A DNA stretch of 11,683 nucleotides from NCBI GenBank assembly GCA_002686955.1, contig NYZA01000182.1:1-11683 (forward strand). Direction: 5' to 3'. The position numbers were made by a program, and so were the translations under genes. Source of the DNA: Gemmatimonadota bacterium (GTDB taxonomy: Bacteria; GCA-2686955). A model generated the notes under the pieces. It made no database searches. It saw only the letters and a program-made list of their open reading frames with translations, and was not told the origin of the DNA. Positions 2,442 through 10,154 of the stretch are shown piece after piece. The first letter of the stretch is position 1. Each line of letters begins with the position of its first letter.

Positions 2442-3536
2442 GTGCATGGAATGACGAGCTACTTCATCCGCCGCTTGCTCCTGGTTCCACTCACATTCGC
2501 TTGCATCACATTTCTGGTCTATTCCGTCATTCGCTTGGCTCCGGGCGGCCCGATCGAGCAGGCGCAACACCAGATTCGGCAGGCGGCGATGTCGGAGGGC
2601 GGTGGGGGCGCGGCGCTCGGCACGGGGCAGGAATTCGAGCTGCCACAAGAGGCGATGGATCAGCTCAAGCGCTACTACAAGCTCGATAAGCCGATCTATC
2701 TTGGCTATCTGATCTGGTTGGGTGTCTGGCCGGACGAAACGAAGAATGGGGCGTTCAGCGGGATCGCGCAGGGAGATTTCGGGACCTCTTACCGCTACTC
2801 CGATCCTGTTCTCGATACGATTATTTCGAAGTTTCCGATATCGATCTACTTCGGTCTGATCGGCTATATCGCGACGTGGGTCGTGTGCATTCCGCTGGGC
2901 GTGAAAAAGGCGCTGGAGCATCGCTCCGCATTCGATACGGTTTCGTCGCTGGCGGTGTTCTTGGGCTACTCGATTCCGGGGTTCGTCGCCGCTCTGGCGT
3001 TGATGCTGATCTTCGCCACCGACAACTTCGGCATGCAGATCTTGCCGCTGGGCGATTTTCGGTCGGAAGGGTGGGACGAAATGTGGGCGCAGGGCGAGAT
3101 CTGGTGGTGCGTGAAGGACCAGGTCAGCCACACGATCATCCCGCTCATCGCCTACATGTTGGCGGGCTTCGCGACCATGACCATCTTGATGAAGAACAGC
3201 CTGCTCGACAATCTCGGGGCGGACTATGTGCGCACGGCCTTCGCGAAGGGGTTGAGCGAAAAGCGGGTGGTCTTCATGCACGCGCTACGCAACTCGCTCA
3301 TTCCGATCTGCGTCGGCGTGGGCCATGCGATCGGGCTGCTTTTCGCGGGCTCGTTCCTGATCGAGAAGACCTGCAACATCCCGGGAATGGGGCTGCTCGG
3401 CTTCAACTCGCTGGTGGAGCGCGACTACCCAGTGCTGATGGGGATTCTGACGATCGGCGTCATCATCCGACTGACGGGCAACATCATTTCCGACATTGTG
3501 CTGGCTCTGGTCGATCCGCGGGTTCGTTTCGGTTGA
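2442..3536 (+). CDS. yejB: Peptide ABC transporter permease, YejB/OppB type
   Basis: The 364-residue inner-membrane protein forms half of the translocation channel. It opens with a first membrane segment (about 12-30) followed by LAPGGPIEQA (32-41), a hallmark of YejB. More hydrophobic segments lie near 133-153, 167-190, 231-250, 288-306 and 332-355. The cytoplasmic coupling (EAA-type) loop is DYVRTAFAKG (261-270) followed by HALRNSLIP (280-288). Length equals the 364 residues I recall for E. coli YejB. The start is GTG at 2442, with GGAG 7 bp upstream; ATG at 2451 (MTSYFIRRLLL) is a possible start three codons later. The gene lies 46 bp after the binding protein, past the hairpin, and 14 bp before the second permease. 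Membership of the peptide permease family is certain and the Yej subfamily likely; the substrate is inferred. Confidence 0.92.
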   Translation: MHGMTSYFIRRLLLVPLTFACITFLVYSVIRLAPGGPIEQAQHQIRQAAMSEGGGGAALGTGQEFELPQEAMDQLKRYYKLDKPIYLGYLIWLGVWPDETKNGAFSGIAQGDFGTSYRYSDPVLDTIISKFPISIYFGLIGYIATWVVCIPLGVKKALEHRSAFDTVSSLAVFLGYSIPGFVAALALMLIFATDNFGMQILPLGDFRSEGWDEMWAQGEIWWCVKDQVSHTIIPLIAYMLAGFATMTILMKNSLLDNLGADYVRTAFAKGLSEKRVVFMHALRNSLIPICVGVGHAIGLLFAGSFLIEKTCNIPGMGLLGFNSLVERDYPVLMGILTIGVIIRLTGNIISDIVLALVDPRVRFG

Positions 3537-3550
3537 GAGAGGCGGCTGTC

Positions 3551-4948
3551 GTGACCTTCGTTTGGAAGACGCTCTATCTCGCCCTGGTGCTGGCCGGGGG
3601 CTATCAACTCACTACCCGGGGCATACCATGGCTCTACACGTGCTTGGGCAGGCGACTCGGCTTTTCGATGAAGATGACTCCGATCACCGAGAAGCGAGTG
3701 CTTCGATTCAAGAGCATACGAAGAGGGCATTGGTCGTTTGTCGCGATCTCTTCACTTTTCGTGACGTCGCTCTTTTTGGAGTTGATCGTCAATGAGAGAC
3801 CGCTGGTGATTCGCTTCGACGGGCGGACCGAGTTTCCGGCTCTAAGGGACTGGACGAACAAGGTCCTGTTTTTTGTAGATTTCCCGGTCTTTCTGCCGAA
3901 GAACGAGTTCGGTCAGAGCGGCGGGGGAGAGGTGGACTACGGCTTTTTCCGGCGCTCGTGCGATGACCCTTCGCTGCTCGATGAGCGGATCACGGACGCC
4001 CAAGAGAAGGCCGCCAAGGCGAGGGCGCGCTTCGAAAAGCTCGATCCGCCGGGGACCGATGATTCGGAGTTCGCGAAGTCGCGATACGAGCAGCGCAAGA
4101 TCACGCACGAGAAGCGGACACAGCAGCTCGTCGATCTTCAGCACTCGCAAGAGGTGTTCGAGGCCGGAGAGGCCGGAATCGTCCCGACGCTCTATCCATA
4201 TTCGCCGAATTCGCTTCGCCACAGCCTCGACAAGCCGCCTCCGAACAAACCCTCTCTTGGCGAGGGGATCCCGCTGGGAACCACGGTCGCCGGGCGGGAC
4301 GTGCTGGTGTTGCTCGTATACGGTTTTCGAATCTCGCTCGCCTTCGCGCTCATCGTGGCGGTTTGCGGCTACGCGGTCGGGGTGATCACGGGGGGCATCC
4401 AGGGCTACTACGGCGGCTGGGTCGATATCGGAACGCAGCGTTTCCAGGAGATCTGGGGCAGCATCCCCTTTCTCTTCACTATCATGATCATCGCGTCTTT
4501 GGTGACGCCCTCGTTCGCCGTGCTGGCCTTCCTCATGATCGTGCTCAGGAGCTGGCTAGGCATCACTTTCTATGTTCGGGGCGAGTTCTATAGAGAGAAG
4601 GCGAAGGACTATGTTCAGGCGGCGATCGGTTCCGGTGTGTCGGATTGGAAGATCATCACCAAGCACATTTTGCCGAACTCGTTGGTGCCGGTCGTGACCT
4701 TCGCGCCTTTCGGAATCGTCGCCTACATCGGAGCGCTGGTGAGCCTCGATTATCTCGGTTTCGGCCTGCCGCCGGGCACGCCGAGTTGGGGGGCTCTGCT
4801 GCGGCAGGGGCTCGAAAATGTGAGGTTCTATCCTTATCTCGTGTTCATCCCAGTCGCCGCTCTGGCTTCGACCCTCTACGGTGTCGTGATGGTCGGCGAA
4901 GCGGTGCGCGAAGCCTTCGATCCCAAAGTGTTCTCCAGGCTCAGGTAG
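3551..4948 (+). CDS. yejE: Peptide ABC transporter permease, YejE/OppC type, with extra N-terminal segment and periplasmic insertion
   Basis: This is the second channel subunit. The core matches YejE: IRRGHWSF (56-63), a membrane segment with LELIVNERPLVIRFDG (76-91), YPYSPNSL (215-222), GRDVLVLLVYGFRIS (248-262), the coupling loop VQAAIGSG (355-362) with ILPNSLVP (373-380), and VGEAVREAFDP (448-458). At 465 residues it is much longer than the roughly 340 I recall for E. coli YejE. Two parts explain this: about 40 extra residues at the N-terminus with a hydrophobic stretch (6-18), and a highly charged insertion at about 137-205, in the periplasmic loop after the first canonical membrane segment. 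GTG at 3551 is preferred because AGAGG lies 8 bp upstream. ATG at 3668 or 3674 would give a YejE-like N-terminus but has a poor ribosome site. The gene ends 8 bp before the ATPase start. Confidence 0.9.
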   Translation: MTFVWKTLYLALVLAGGYQLTTRGIPWLYTCLGRRLGFSMKMTPITEKRVLRFKSIRRGHWSFVAISSLFVTSLFLELIVNERPLVIRFDGRTEFPALRDWTNKVLFFVDFPVFLPKNEFGQSGGGEVDYGFFRRSCDDPSLLDERITDAQEKAAKARARFEKLDPPGTDDSEFAKSRYEQRKITHEKRTQQLVDLQHSQEVFEAGEAGIVPTLYPYSPNSLRHSLDKPPPNKPSLGEGIPLGTTVAGRDVLVLLVYGFRISLAFALIVAVCGYAVGVITGGIQGYYGGWVDIGTQRFQEIWGSIPFLFTIMIIASLVTPSFAVLAFLMIVLRSWLGITFYVRGEFYREKAKDYVQAAIGSGVSDWKIITKHILPNSLVPVVTFAPFGIVAYIGALVSLDYLGFGLPPGTPSWGALLRQGLENVRFYPYLVFIPVAALASTLYGVVMVGEAVREAFDPKVFSRLR

Positions 4949-4956
4949 GCAAGCAG

Positions 4957-5970
4957 ATGAGCAACGAAACGCGAAAGAAGCTGCTCGAGGTCAATGACCT
5001 CAAGACCTACTTCGATGTGGAAGGACGGACCGCGAAGGCGGTGGACGGGGTCAGCTTCCACATCTACGAAAACGAGGTATTCGGCCTCGTCGGGGAGTCG
5101 GGCAGCGGCAAGTCGGTGACATCTCTTTCAGTGATGCGGCTGATCCCGAATCCACCGGGGGACATCGTCAGCGGCGAGCTGATCTTCAAGGGGCGGAACC
5201 TGCTCGATCTCTCTTACGACGAGATGAGGAAGATCCGAGGCCACCACATTTCGATGATCTTTCAGGAGCCGATGACGGCGCTGAATCCCGTTTTCAGCAT
5301 CGGCTTTCAGCTTCTCGAAGCGATCACGCACCACGCGACCATGAGCAAGGAGGAAGCGCGCGAGCGTGCCGTGGAGATGTTGTCTCTGGTGGGCATTCCG
5401 GATGCCGCCCGGCGTCTCGACAACTACCCGCACGAGTTCAGCGGGGGGATGCGGCAACGGGCCATGATCGCCATGGCGCTCGCCATGAACCCATCACTCT
5501 TGATCGCGGACGAGCCGACCACCGCCCTCGATGTAACGATTCAGGCGCAGATTCTGGAGCTGATGCTCGATGTGCGGAAGAAGACCGGCGGCTCGTCGAT
5601 CATGCTGATCACGCACGACCTGGCGGTGGTGGCGGAGACTTGCGAGAGGGTGGCCGTGATGTACGGGGGCAAGATCCAAGAGGTGGCGGAAGTCTCTCCT
5701 CTCTTCCGGGAGCCGCTGCACCCCTACACGCGAGGGTTGATGAGCTCGCTTCCGCGGCCCGATCGGGAGCAGCAGAAACGGCTCGACACGATCCCCGGAA
5801 TCGTGCCCAGCATTTTGAATATGCCGCCGGGCTGCAAGTTCGCGGAAAGGTGTCGCGAGCGGATCGATCGCTGCGATATCGAAGAGCCGAGTCTGATCGA
5901 GGTGCGACCGGGGCGCCTCTGTCGTTGCCATCAGGTCGAGCCCGCCGCGGTGGCGAAAGGGGCTGCATGA
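4957..5970 (+). CDS. oppD: Peptide ABC transporter ATP-binding protein, OppD/DppD type
   Basis: This 337-residue cytoplasmic ATPase is one of the two that power import. Motifs in order: Walker A GESGSGKS (46-53), Q-loop Q103 in FQEPMTALNP, signature SGGMRQR (162-168), Walker B LLIADEP (181-187), D-loop ALD (190-192), and switch His H220 in THDLA. The C-terminal oligopeptide-transport domain contains HPYTRGL (255-261) and cysteines C293, C299, C306 and C324, spaced Cx5Cx6Cx17C, with an extra C322. In DppD/OppD relatives such cysteines hold a [4Fe-4S] cluster. A good AGG site lies 7 bp before the ATG. E. coli YejF is a single protein carrying both ATPase halves; here they are separate genes, as in Opp and Dpp systems. 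The last four bases overlap the next gene (ATGA), which suggests translational coupling. Confidence 0.93.
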   Translation: MSNETRKKLLEVNDLKTYFDVEGRTAKAVDGVSFHIYENEVFGLVGESGSGKSVTSLSVMRLIPNPPGDIVSGELIFKGRNLLDLSYDEMRKIRGHHISMIFQEPMTALNPVFSIGFQLLEAITHHATMSKEEARERAVEMLSLVGIPDAARRLDNYPHEFSGGMRQRAMIAMALAMNPSLLIADEPTTALDVTIQAQILELMLDVRKKTGGSSIMLITHDLAVVAETCERVAVMYGGKIQEVAEVSPLFREPLHPYTRGLMSSLPRPDREQQKRLDTIPGIVPSILNMPPGCKFAERCRERIDRCDIEEPSLIEVRPGRLCRCHQVEPAAVAKGAA

Positions 5971-6980
5971 TGGCCGCCAAGACTTCGGCGAACGGAAAGG
6001 CGCTGCTCGAGCTTCGTGGCCTCAAGGTGCACTACCCGATCCACGGGGGCATCTTCTTGCGCCGAATCGGCGAAGTGAAGGCGGTCGACGGTGTCAGCGC
6101 CGTGGTCAACGAGGGAGAGACCCTCGGTCTCGTCGGCGAATCGGGTTGCGGCAAGACGACCATCGGCAAGGCGGTTCTGCGCCTCGTTCATGCAACCGAG
6201 GGGGAGATCCGGTTCACGCGAGAGAGCGGGGAGCGGGTCGATCTCGTCGAGATGAACCGCGGCGAGATGCGACCGGTTCGCGCCGAGATCCAGATGATCT
6301 ACCAGGATCCGTACTCTTCGCTCAATCCGCGCTGGTCGGTGGGCGAGATCATCGCCGAGCCGCTGATGGTGCACCAGCCGAAGCTGTCGGTGGCGGAGCG
6401 GGATGAGAAGGTGGCCTGGCTGCTGGAAAAGGTCGGTCTGACCGGGGAGCAATCGTATCGATATCCGCACGAGTTCAGCGGGGGGCAAAGGCAGCGGGTC
6501 GGAATCGCGCGGGCTCTCTCGACCGGCCCGCGCCTGGTCGTTGCCGACGAGCCGGTCTCGGCGCTCGACGTGTCGATTCAAGCGCAGGTGATCAACCTGA
6601 TGCAGGATTTGCAGGAGGAATTCGGTCTCACCTACCTCTTCATCGCCCACGATCTGAGCGTCGTCGAGCACATCAGCCACAGGATCGCGGTGATGTATCT
6701 GGGCAATTTGGTAGAGGTGGGCTCATCGAACGAGCTCTACAACCACGCGATGCATCCCTACACCCGGGCGCTGCTGAGCGCTGTGCCGCTCCCCGATCCC
6801 GACGCGAACCGGCCCGACCGAATCGCGCTCACGGGGGAGGTCCCCAGCCCGCTCGCCAAGCCCTCCGGCTGCGCGTTCCGCACCCGCTGCCCACTGGCGA
6901 AGAGCTCCTGCGCCGATGAGATCCCGCCATTGAAAGAGGTCGGGCCGGGGCATCTGGTGGCCTGCCCGGTCGTTTCGTAG
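5967..6980 (+). CDS. oppF: Peptide ABC transporter ATP-binding protein, OppF/DppF type
   Basis: This is the partner ATPase, also 337 residues. Motifs: [18 protein letters not shown] (27-44), a typical OppF N-terminal block; Walker A GESGCGKT (57-64); Q-loop Q113 in [11 protein letters not shown]; signature [14 protein letters not shown] (171-184); Walker B LVVADEP (190-196); and switch His H228. The C-terminal domain shows [13 protein letters not shown] (262-274) and cysteines C302, C308, C315 and C333, with the same Cx5Cx6Cx17C spacing as its partner. Two start codons lie side by side: ATG 5967 overlaps the previous stop, and ATG 5970 lies 7 bp after AAAGGGG and may be the better initiator. 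This is the last gene of the operon. It ends 9 bp from a gene on the opposite strand, and I see no separate terminator between them. Confidence 0.93.
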
Positions 6981-6989
6981 AGCGCCGGC

Positions 6990-8183
6990 TCAATCCCCGA
7001 CGATCACCGACACCATTCCCCATACCACCAGGCTCCACCAGTCGTTCAACGCCTGGTTGAGTGTGCCGGTGAAGCTGACATCCTCTTCGGGCCAGTAGTA
7101 CATCCAGGCATTGCCGTAGCCGTCGTGGCCCACCAGCTCACCGATACCGCCGTCGAAGCGGATCTGGTAGATGCCGAGGCCGTAGTAGACATCGACGTCG
7201 CCCGTGAACACCCATTCCCGCATCTCTTCGAGTGTCGCGGGATCGTCGAAGAGCTCTCCCTGAAAGAGCGCGCGCGAGAACGTCTCCAGGTCGCGCGTGC
7301 TGCTCACGAGGCCTCCGCCGGCCCAGTCGGCGCTTTGGCGCATCTGCCCGTACATATCGAGCTTCCATTCGTATCGGTGGGATTCCGCGTGGGGAGAAGT
7401 GGGTTGCTCGCGGTAAGGCAGATAGGTGTCGTTCATTGCGAAGGGGCTGAAGATGAGGTCGCGATAAACGTGGTGCAGCTGACGATTCGCCACGATCTCC
7501 GCGATCATGCCTAGCAACACATATCCGGTGTCGGAGTAGTGGAAGAGCGTGCCCGGGGGCGCGATCGGGGTCAGATCCTTCGCGTACCCGATCAGGTCCT
7601 CCGGCTCCCAGAACATGTCCCAGTCGCGGTAGTACTCGATGAGAAACGCATTGAGCTCCCAAAATACGTAGGGAGGGTCGTACCAGTAGTCGGGCAGTCC
7701 GCTCGTATGGTTCAAACACTGTCGCAGGGTGATCTCCGGACCGTAGTCGTGGTCGTCGATGACGAGCAGCCCCTGGGTGATATCGGTGGGGAGGTAGGTA
7801 GAGATCGGATCGTCGAGGAAAAGCAGCCCCTCTTCCTTCAAGAGCAGAATCGTCGCCGCTGTAAAGGTCTTGCTGGTGCTCGCGATCTCGAAAGTGTCGC
7901 GAGGCTCGATCGGCACACCGCCGATGCGATCGATGTCGCCGGAGACCCCTTCGAAGAGCACGCCGTCGCTGCCCGAGCTCATCCGGAAGAGCCCGCCGCC
8001 GTAACCCCGGTTCTTGGCGATTTTGGCGTCGAGTTTGGCCTGGAGATCGATGGCGCGATCGGCGGGCTGGAGCTGGACGATGGCCTGTCGTGGAGTGGGT
8101 GGGGCGGAGGCGCGGGTGGGTTGGGCGCCTGGGCCAGGGGAGGCCAGGGCGATGGCGGTGGTGAGGGTGATTGAAATGGTCAT
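6990..8183 (-). CDS. Serine hydrolase, class C beta-lactamase / DD-peptidase fold
   Basis: The 397-residue product belongs to the beta-lactamase-related (Pfam Beta-lactamase) family, which includes DD-carboxypeptidases, AmpC enzymes and EstB-type esterases. The SxxK motif is S102-T-S-K105, with S102 the expected nucleophile. HTSGLPDY (159-166) and AGGGLVSSTRDL (288-299) are family blocks. The second active-site motif is Y216-S-D218 where many members have YxN. The third is H353-D-G355, the HxG variant of KTG. These variants are seen in non-lactamase members, so beta-lactam hydrolysis should not be assumed. The N-terminus has a short hydrophobic stretch (about 3-15) without a basic n-region, so export is uncertain. 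The start is fixed by AAGGAG (8194-8199 on this strand, 10-base spacing) and an in-frame stop two codons upstream. It converges on the transporter operon; a role with peptidoglycan-derived peptides is only a suggestion from the neighbourhood. Confidence 0.9.
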   Translation of the reverse strand: MTISITLTTAIALASPGPGAQPTRASAPPTPRQAIVQLQPADRAIDLQAKLDAKIAKNRGYGGGLFRMSSGSDGVLFEGVSGDIDRIGGVPIEPRDTFEIASTSKTFTAATILLLKEEGLLFLDDPISTYLPTDITQGLLVIDDHDYGPEITLRQCLNHTSGLPDYWYDPPYVFWELNAFLIEYYRDWDMFWEPEDLIGYAKDLTPIAPPGTLFHYSDTGYVLLGMIAEIVANRQLHHVYRDLIFSPFAMNDTYLPYREQPTSPHAESHRYEWKLDMYGQMRQSADWAGGGLVSSTRDLETFSRALFQGELFDDPATLEEMREWVFTGDVDVYYGLGIYQIRFDGGIGELVGHDGYGNAWMYYWPEEDVSFTGTLNQALNDWWSLVVWGMVSVIVGD

Positions 8184-8266: not shown

Positions 8267-8992
8267 ATGCCCTCACCACCCCCCGCAATCGAAACAGCCG
8301 GCTGGATCCCCATCGACACCGAGGCCGGCCTCTGGACAATGCCCTTTCCCGTTGGACCATGGGAAGGTCGCGCGACCGCTCTGGCGCTGCCAGATGGCGG
8401 CTTCATCGTGGTCAACCCCGGCCCGGGACAGAAGGTCGCGGCCACGAGGGTGCTGGGGGAGCACGGTGGCGTGCGGGCGTTGGTGCTGATGAACCACTTC
8501 CATCATCTGGGGCTGCGGCGATGGCGAGCGCGTCTTCCGGACGTGCCGGTCGTTGCCTCCGATCGTGCCCTTCCGCGCCTGGCGAAGCAGGGACACTACG
8601 AGCTCGATTCCGTCTCCGGCGTCGAGGAGATTCTGCCGGAGCATGCCTGTTTTCTCCATCCGGCCGGCACGCGCAGCGGCGAGATCTGGCTGCGCGTGGA
8701 GACCGAGCGGGGCGTTGCCTGGGCCGTAGGCGATGCATTCTTCAACGTCTCCTACAATCCGCCGGGCTTCTACGGATTCGTCGCTCGGCTGACCGGCACA
8801 ACACCGGGACCGCGCTTCGGACTCGTCTTCAAGTATCTGCACTTGTCGGATCGGGCGGCCTATCGGGATTGGGTAATGGAACAGCTCACCCAAGACCCCC
8901 CGCGCATTCTGGTGCCCGCCCACGGCGATCTCATGGAGGGCGACGACCTGCCGGATCGTCTGAGTGCGCTCGTGCGGGGACGGCTTGGGTAG
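8267..8992 (+). CDS. Metallo-beta-lactamase-like (DUF4336-like) protein with degenerate metal motif
   Basis: The 241-residue protein, with no signal peptide, has the layout of a metallo-beta-lactamase fold: an N-terminal strand region ending in GGFIVVNPGPG (44-54), a helix, then ALVLMNHFHHLGLRRW (71-86) where the HxHxDH motif normally sits, VAWAVGDAFFN (150-160) with D156 as the expected bridging Asp, and ILVPAHGD (214-221) with the last His, H219. The first motif keeps H77 and H79 but has no DH after it, as in the DUF4336 group, so a full two-metal site is unlikely. The substrate is unknown. The ATG at 8267 lacks a clear ribosome site; the protein could start later. Its 3' end overlaps the next gene, so the two are probably co-translated. 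Confidence 0.72.
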   Translation: MPSPPPAIETAGWIPIDTEAGLWTMPFPVGPWEGRATALALPDGGFIVVNPGPGQKVAATRVLGEHGGVRALVLMNHFHHLGLRRWRARLPDVPVVASDRALPRLAKQGHYELDSVSGVEEILPEHACFLHPAGTRSGEIWLRVETERGVAWAVGDAFFNVSYNPPGFYGFVARLTGTTPGPRFGLVFKYLHLSDRAAYRDWVMEQLTQDPPRILVPAHGDLMEGDDLPDRLSALVRGRLG

Positions 8993-10154
8993 TCGCCGCG
9001 TTCTCCCGCTCTTGGCGTTTCCCGTTCTTTGCCTGACGGCCTGCCAACAACAATCCAACGCGCCTCCGCCTCCCCCGCGCTGCGCCTCGTCCCCCACCCT
9101 CGCCGGCCTCGGAGAGCACACTCCCGCCTCCGCCCTGACCTCCCAACGCATCCCCCTATGGGCCTCCCGCATCCAGTCCTTCCTCGATCGCGGCGTCATC
9201 CCCCTCGTCGACCTGCAATCCAGCTTGGCCCGATCCCACGGCGAGAAGTACCTCGGTGAAGCGCTGTGGGCGATGGATGAGCTCGGAATCGCGCTAATCG
9301 CCTTCGACGGCTACGAGGAGCCCGAGCCGGCGGCCGATGAAGAAAGCGACACTTACAACTGGGGCCGGTACCCCGAAGAGGTGGCCGAGCGTTATCCCGA
9401 TCGCATCATCCCCGCAACGAACGGTGGACGCAGCCCCAACTGGAAGACCGGTGGAGACGCATTTGTATCGGCCGTAGAGCGAAACATCCGCTCGGGCGCC
9501 TACCCGATCATCGGCGAGCTCAATTTCCGGCAGTACATGCCAGGCTGGCGCTGGGAGCCCGGTGTGACGGGCGCCGACCGCTATGTTGATATCCCGCTGA
9601 TGAGCGACAAAGGACGCCGGATTCTCGCGCTCTCCAGCGAAACACTGATCGCCGTCCCCGCCCATATCGAGCCCGAGGACCCCGCCCTCGAAGACCTGGA
9701 GGCCGCCCTCGCCGCCTATCCCCGCGCCAAAATCATCGCCACGCATTTCGGGCAGGTGCGCCGCCCAAAACGTTGCACCCGTTTCGGCCCCGATCTGGTC
9801 CGCCGCCTTCTATCCACGCACCCCAATCTCTACTACGATCTGGCGATCAGCACGCCCGGGCATGTGCACTACGATCCACGCGTCTTCGATGGAGCGATCT
9901 GGCGAGACGGCCCCAACGGCGGCCAGCTTGCAGAGGTGAAGCCGGAGTATTCGGCGCTCTTCGCCGAGTTCAGCGACCGCTTCATCACCGGTCTCGACTA
10001 CGGCATCGGCCGGAGCCCGCTCGCCGCGCACTTGAGTGCAAAAGCGAAGAACGTCCGCTTGATCCTGCGCGACCTGCCCGAGAGCTGCCGGCATGACATC
10101 GCCTACAGAAACGCGTGGTTTCTGTTGACCGGAGGTGTGTGGCCGGAGGCTTGA
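8964..10154 (+). CDS. Amidohydrolase-like (TIM-barrel) lipoprotein lacking the usual HxH
   Basis: The product resembles amidohydrolase family 2 barrels: PLVDLQSSLARSHG (80-93) at the position of the usual metal-binding first strand, ELGIALIAFDG (106-116), RYPDRIIPATNGG (143-155), YPIIGELNFRQYMP (180-193), VPAHIEPED (231-239), IIATHFGQ (257-264), NLYYDLAIS (288-296) and FITGLDYG (340-347). H234, H261 and D345 match expected metal and catalytic positions. The first motif, normally DxHxH, is D83-L-Q-S-S, so two ligands are missing. A hydrophobic segment ending L-T-A-C27 is a lipobox, so the protein should be lipid-anchored. The GTG at 8964 gives the longest form. TTG at 8985, 4 bp after GGGGA, gives a cleaner signal peptide (MGSRRVLPLLAFPVLCLTAC) and is a serious alternative. 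Either way it overlaps the upstream gene. Catalytic activity is doubtful. Confidence 0.75.
   Translation: MRSCGDGLGSRRVLPLLAFPVLCLTACQQQSNAPPPPPRCASSPTLAGLGEHTPASALTSQRIPLWASRIQSFLDRGVIPLVDLQSSLARSHGEKYLGEALWAMDELGIALIAFDGYEEPEPAADEESDTYNWGRYPEEVAERYPDRIIPATNGGRSPNWKTGGDAFVSAVERNIRSGAYPIIGELNFRQYMPGWRWEPGVTGADRYVDIPLMSDKGRRILALSSETLIAVPAHIEPEDPALEDLEAALAAYPRAKIIATHFGQVRRPKRCTRFGPDLVRRLLSTHPNLYYDLAISTPGHVHYDPRVFDGAIWRDGPNGGQLAEVKPEYSALFAEFSDRFITGLDYGIGRSPLAAHLSAKAKNVRLILRDLPESCRHDIAYRNAWFLLTGGVWPEA

Follow-up and report, generated by a model that had tools for sequence, protein, structure and literature searches.

The window analyzed here, 11,683 nucleotides of DNA from a Gemmatimonadota bacterium, encodes a peptide importer whose YejE-type permease contains a charged segment between its first two canonical membrane helices. 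This raises the question of whether the segment is an ordered and maintained part of the protein and, if so, what it does in the periplasm.

A YejABEF-like importer with an elongated permease

The window holds a complete YejABEF-like importer with all genes in the same direction. The gene order yejA-yejB-yejE-ATPase is found both here and in related loci, where the binding protein, permeases and ATPases stay together. The genes and the parts of the YejE-type permease are as follows:

545-2395, + strand: YejA-like substrate-binding protein (SBP_bac_5, 219.9 bits)
2442-3536, + strand: YejB-like partner permease (PRK15133/YejB, 222 bits, below the cut-off of 445; BPD_transp_1)
3551-4948, + strand: YejE-type (DppC/OppC-like) permease, 465 aa, GTG start (BPD_transp_1, 85.3 bits)
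3554-3655, + strand: additional hydrophobic helix at the N-terminus (TM0), residues 2-35 (AF2 pLDDT 86-94)
3719-3787, + strand: TM1, residues 57-79 (AF2 helices 57-73 and 76-79; hydropathy peak 61-82)
3959-4165, + strand: inserted segment, putatively periplasmic, residues 137-205 (in 54 clade members, in no canonical YejE)
3974-4036, + strand: predicted hairpin helix 1, residues 142-162 (AF2; a/d positions 143, 147, 150, 154, 157, 161)
4037-4066, + strand: predicted Pro-rich turn, residues 163-172 (AF2; indels cluster here or at 160-166)
4067-4165, + strand: predicted hairpin helix 2, residues 173-205 (AF2; a/d positions 179, 182, 186, 189, 193, 196, 200, 203)
4301-4918, + strand: transmembrane core, residues 251-456 (AF2 helices)
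4957-5970, + strand: ATPase 1 (ABC_tran and oligo_HPY)
5967-6980, + strand: ATPase 2 (ABC_tran and oligo_HPY)

The permease matches BPD_transp_1 (PF00528) well above the cut-off of 26.4 bits. Its best NCBIfam model is PRK15021/YejE (NF011596) with 239.4 bits, below the cut-off of 439; judged by sequence, the protein is a relative of YejE that lies outside the family as drawn by that cut-off. The GTG start at 3551 was preferred over a later ATG because the added N-terminal helix is conserved in relatives. Among the aligned relatives, residues 246-465 contain 89 invariant columns.

The window importer shares the gene order, the permease core and a similar N-terminal periplasmic motif (PLLVRYDG..FP) with the microcin C/peptide importer YejABEF of E. 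coli. However, E. coli YejE has 341 aa and lacks both the hairpin and the extra N-terminal helix, whereas the window permease has 465 aa and carries both. The window also encodes two separate ATPases rather than a YejF with two nucleotide-binding domains in one polypeptide, which in E. coli is the product of one fused gene.

The inserted residues 137-205 read CDDPSLLDERITDAQEKAAKARARFEKLDPPGTDDSEFAKSRYEQRKITHEKRTQQLVDLQHSQEVFEA (E8 K6 R6 D8 Q6 A7). They lie between TM1 and the YPYSPNSL region, where the first-pass annotation had placed them, and E. coli YejE (L115, from CP137936), which aligns along the protein, indeed lacks such a segment: the interval from Tyr130 to Gly206 spans 76 residues in the window permease and 11 in the E. 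coli protein. This makes the TM1-TM2 loop about 64 residues longer than that of canonical YejE. The annotation had also considered that such a segment might be common to all YejE proteins, but it is missing from the canonical forms of Vibrio, Paraburkholderia and various other genomes, most of which have 11-13 residues between the equivalent anchors. A few canonical forms differ, such as that of Paracoccus (L178), in which an unrelated 40-residue segment occupies the interval. Disorder, a frameshift and mis-assembly were ruled out as sources of the insert by the continuous reading frame, a pLDDT of about 90 and its occurrence in independent relatives.

Two further genes of the window lie beyond the importer. 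A beta-lactamase-family serine hydrolase (PF00144, 174 bits) is encoded at 6990-8183 on the - strand, convergent to the importer operon, and a possible amidohydrolase (PF04909, 24.9 bits, just below the cut-off of 26.4) is encoded downstream at 8964-10154 on the + strand.

Predicted fold and conservation of the insert

The AF2 model of the permease, built from a 55-sequence alignment, has a mean pLDDT of 89.5 and a pTM of 0.84. It predicts the insert as a helix-turn-helix hairpin, with helices 142-162 and 173-205 flanking a ten-residue turn (block pLDDT about 88-94), and helix 2 terminating in a conserved F203-x-x-G206 motif. The model places TM0 ahead of an elbow and TM1. The helical hairpin proposed in the first-pass annotation is therefore confidently predicted. 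From the model we infer that the two helices pack on each other, probably as an antiparallel coiled coil. The permease core superimposes on OppC/DppC structures with a Z score of 28.9 (8z21_B, about 278 residues aligned, rmsd 2.4). DppC/OppC permeases (8z21, 8z1w, 8j5s) have this core fold in common with the window permease, but with 278-289 residues against 465 they have no room for the hairpin or TM0, both of which fall outside the alignment. Foldseek searches matched the permease core and are thus uninformative about the hairpin, and a Pfam search of the insert at E 0.1 matched no known domain.

The coiled-coil character suggested in the annotation is weak in the window sequence alone (a/d heptad test, p = 0.095 and 0.46 for the two helices), and strong in the family, with p ≤ 0.002 for each helix. 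Hydrophobic residues across the family concentrate at 143, 147, 150, 154, 157, 161 and 164 on the helix 1 side and at 179, 182, 186, 189, 193, 196, 200 and 203 in helix 2. The test, which scores the hydrophobic fraction at a/d positions, was picked after the per-position table had been viewed and was thus not blind; it was then repeated on two separate clean phylum sets, and the 13 Planctomycetota-type and 14 Elusimicrobiota-type sequences, taken separately, agreed on the phase of each helix (p 0.0002-0.0018). A Fourier analysis on the Eisenberg scale gave no significant periodicity. The AF2 and heptad results are not mutually independent, since the AF2 alignment was built from the sequences that the heptad test used.

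Within the permease, conservation is lowest in the insert, where pairwise identity averages 0.26 as opposed to 0.73 in the core. In the main group the insert varies little in length (66-70 residues). Gaps fall at 161, 163 and 166, and additional residues follow position 160, with a single exception after 146. Over 11 pairs, dN/dS ranged from 0.03 to 0.49 for the insert and, generally lower, from 0.01 to 0.13 for the core, with dS being high in some pairs. The constant heptad phase, the near-confinement of indels to the turn and the dN/dS values argue against both disorder and drift, and by these sequence measures the hairpin is under purifying selection. Disorder with no conservation, against which the annotation had set its proposal, is thus not what was found.

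Distribution and origin of the hairpin form

A related-locus search of 84,980 genomes returned 80 loci. The insert was present in 40 aligned sequences including the window, and in the others, except one planctomycetotal locus (L098), some 4-5 residues separate the 137 and 205 anchors. Because one search peptide falls inside the insert, this sample is biased toward it, and the phyla were therefore sampled by draw. Of the 294 Planctomycetota genomes drawn, 23 proved to have the hairpin form and at least seven a form without it, with seven further matches outside this count; the fraction is approximate, since some genomes already in the set reappeared. In Elusimicrobiota, six of 149 genomes carry the hairpin form, and there was one canonical form in addition. 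Of the matches measured in a domain-wide draw of 386 genomes, those that run through the insert came from just two genomes, the window's own and that of its one family relative. The hairpin form is a minority in the sampled phyla.

In this nearest relative (G001) the two forms coexist: besides the hairpin permease, it has a YejE of canonical length, encoded on contig C57 (L181), and a YejB-like frame shares the strand with it.

In a tree of core columns without the insert, every hairpin row groups together on a branch with 100% support, and in the wider-sample tree a single branch separates all 54 hairpin rows from the rest (100% SH-aLRT, one change); both trees are of a quick type without bootstrap and unrooted. 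L009, L171 and L098 were left outside the hairpin group, as their inserts appear unrelated by eye; including them needs three changes. Members of the branch come from Planctomycetota, Elusimicrobiota and Wallbacteria as well as from the lineage of the window, and no loss of the hairpin within it was seen. The new subclass envisaged in the annotation thus finds support as a single clade. TM0 accompanies the hairpin in every clade member checked: mean hydropathy of this region is at least 1.5 in 40 of the 40 hairpin-clade rows tested, whereas most short forms are below 0.9. Most simply, the sequences suggest that the hairpin would have been gained once, together with the N-terminal membrane helix, in the ancestor of the branch.

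The insert might nevertheless be a tolerated, lineage-specific decoration of an insert-accepting loop with no important function. Its low conservation is consistent with this, as are the unrelated inserts in the same loop elsewhere (147 residues in L098, LDDFED-type repeats in L009 and L171, 40 residues in the Paracoccus protein L178). However, a decoration of this kind would hardly be expected to keep a near-constant length, a heptad phase common to phyla, indels in the turn region, dN/dS well below 1 and an unbroken presence in its clade, and we consider it unlikely. The hairpin is a real addition to an already known type of transporter: it is predicted to be ordered, is under selection and defines a clade.

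Possible roles of the periplasmic hairpin

A positively charged, cytoplasmic stretch precedes TM1. From the positive-inside rule and from homology to DppC, in which the TM1-TM2 loop is periplasmic (PMC12136057), we infer that the corresponding loop of the window permease is on the periplasmic side. As part of this loop of the C-type permease, the hairpin would then reach out into the periplasm. There it could serve, in the manner of MalF-P2, as an arm for docking, keeping the YejA-like binding protein in place or in the right orientation above the pore. Such an arm would complement the scoop loop that the YejB-type partner is expected to have. Docking of the binding protein is the likeliest role of the hairpin, with a probability that we put at roughly 45% from its position and from precedent.

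Structures of this peptide importer class are known from E. coli and Mycobacterium, and the contact described in them is the scoop of the B-type permease. In DppABCDF, it belongs to DppB, not DppC (PMC12136057). Like the arm proposed here, the scoop is a two-helix periplasmic element engaging the binding protein (PMC12136057), but it comprises about 30 residues and is flexible without its partner, and it resides in the B-type permease, whereas the hairpin belongs to the C-type permease. The precedent, MalF-P2 of MalFGK2, directly contacts its binding protein (PMC3150292) and, like the hairpin, is inserted into just one of the permease subunits on the periplasmic side. The likeness is one of position and function only: MalF-P2 has about 180 residues (91-271) forming antiparallel beta-sheets (PMC3150292), in contrast to the predicted two-helix hairpin, and no sequence relation between the two was found.

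Comparisons made to detect signs of such contact came out negative. The net charges of hairpin and binding protein showed no correlation across relatives (rho = -0.18, p = 0.37). Indels of the binding protein specific to the hairpin clade amount to one residue gained and 13 alignment columns lost relative to the short forms, and no such indel was seen in YejB, where the marine subclade has 99 extra columns. Charge-correlation and indel searches of this kind are weak tests of contact. The fast divergence of the hairpin relative to the core and the location of the known DppABCDF contact in DppB were also counted against docking.

Alternatively, the hairpin could be a structural brace that packs on TM0, YejB or a second transporter copy and stabilizes the assembly with no direct role in docking. 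Its co-occurrence with TM0 throughout the clade members tested would fit a brace, as would the location of the conserved positions at the hairpin base (D139-P140, F203, G206, A208) and not at its tip. On the other hand, the lack of a clade-specific indel in YejB speaks against such packing, as does the placement of TM0 mostly within the membrane and of the hairpin outside it. A brace is rather unlikely, if still worth considering.

A role as a spacer or anchor contacting peptidoglycan or another envelope component appears improbable. The hairpin does present a charged helical surface within the periplasm, but helices of 21 and 33 residues span only about 30-50 angstroms, which counts against an anchor in peptidoglycan. 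Moreover, the net charge of the hairpin ranges from -8 to +15 over the clade, and the insert resembles no known Pfam domain. A point in favor of an envelope contact comes from a related YejBEF system, which is reported to recycle muropeptides in Agrobacterium (PMC9790009).

If the hairpin does dock the binding protein, these importers may form a distinct YejABEF-like subfamily whose C-type permease acquired a further membrane helix and a periplasmic coiled-coil arm docking the binding protein opposite the B-type scoop, with a later beta-domain extension in marine Planctomycetota; we advance this only tentatively. A docking module like MalF-P2 would then have been invented a second time, independently. 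Among the papers searched, none names YejE together with Planctomycetes, and the titles listed included nothing relevant on coiled-coil inserts in importer permeases.

In marine Planctomycetota the hairpin is longer, and the permease includes a further domain, predicted to be beta-rich. The AF2 model of one of them, L066 (mean 81, of lower confidence), contains hairpin helices 141-175 and 182-213 followed by five or six beta strands (256-339). The graded series from no arm through a 60-residue hairpin to a longer hairpin with a beta domain provides natural material on how binding proteins are held.

Further additions occur among YejE-like permeases, and lineage-specific inserts recur in the TM1-TM2 loop of YejE. 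In the marine loci L064-L073 and L129-L138, an extra domain of at least 100 residues lies at the equivalents of 232-241, just before the core, and in L064-L073 YejB also has about 99 extra columns. The insert of L098, at the equivalents of 137-205, is repetitive and helical-looking, and the LDDFED-type repeats of L009 and L171, which belong to another lineage (family f6), are acidic. In L170, L176 and L177 an unrelated segment of this loop sets the 206 and 243 anchors 218-245 residues apart. Finally, the genome of the window encodes another peptide-type permease (L002, contig C211), in which an Ala/Glu-rich, partly coil-like stretch of about 250 residues precedes the core.
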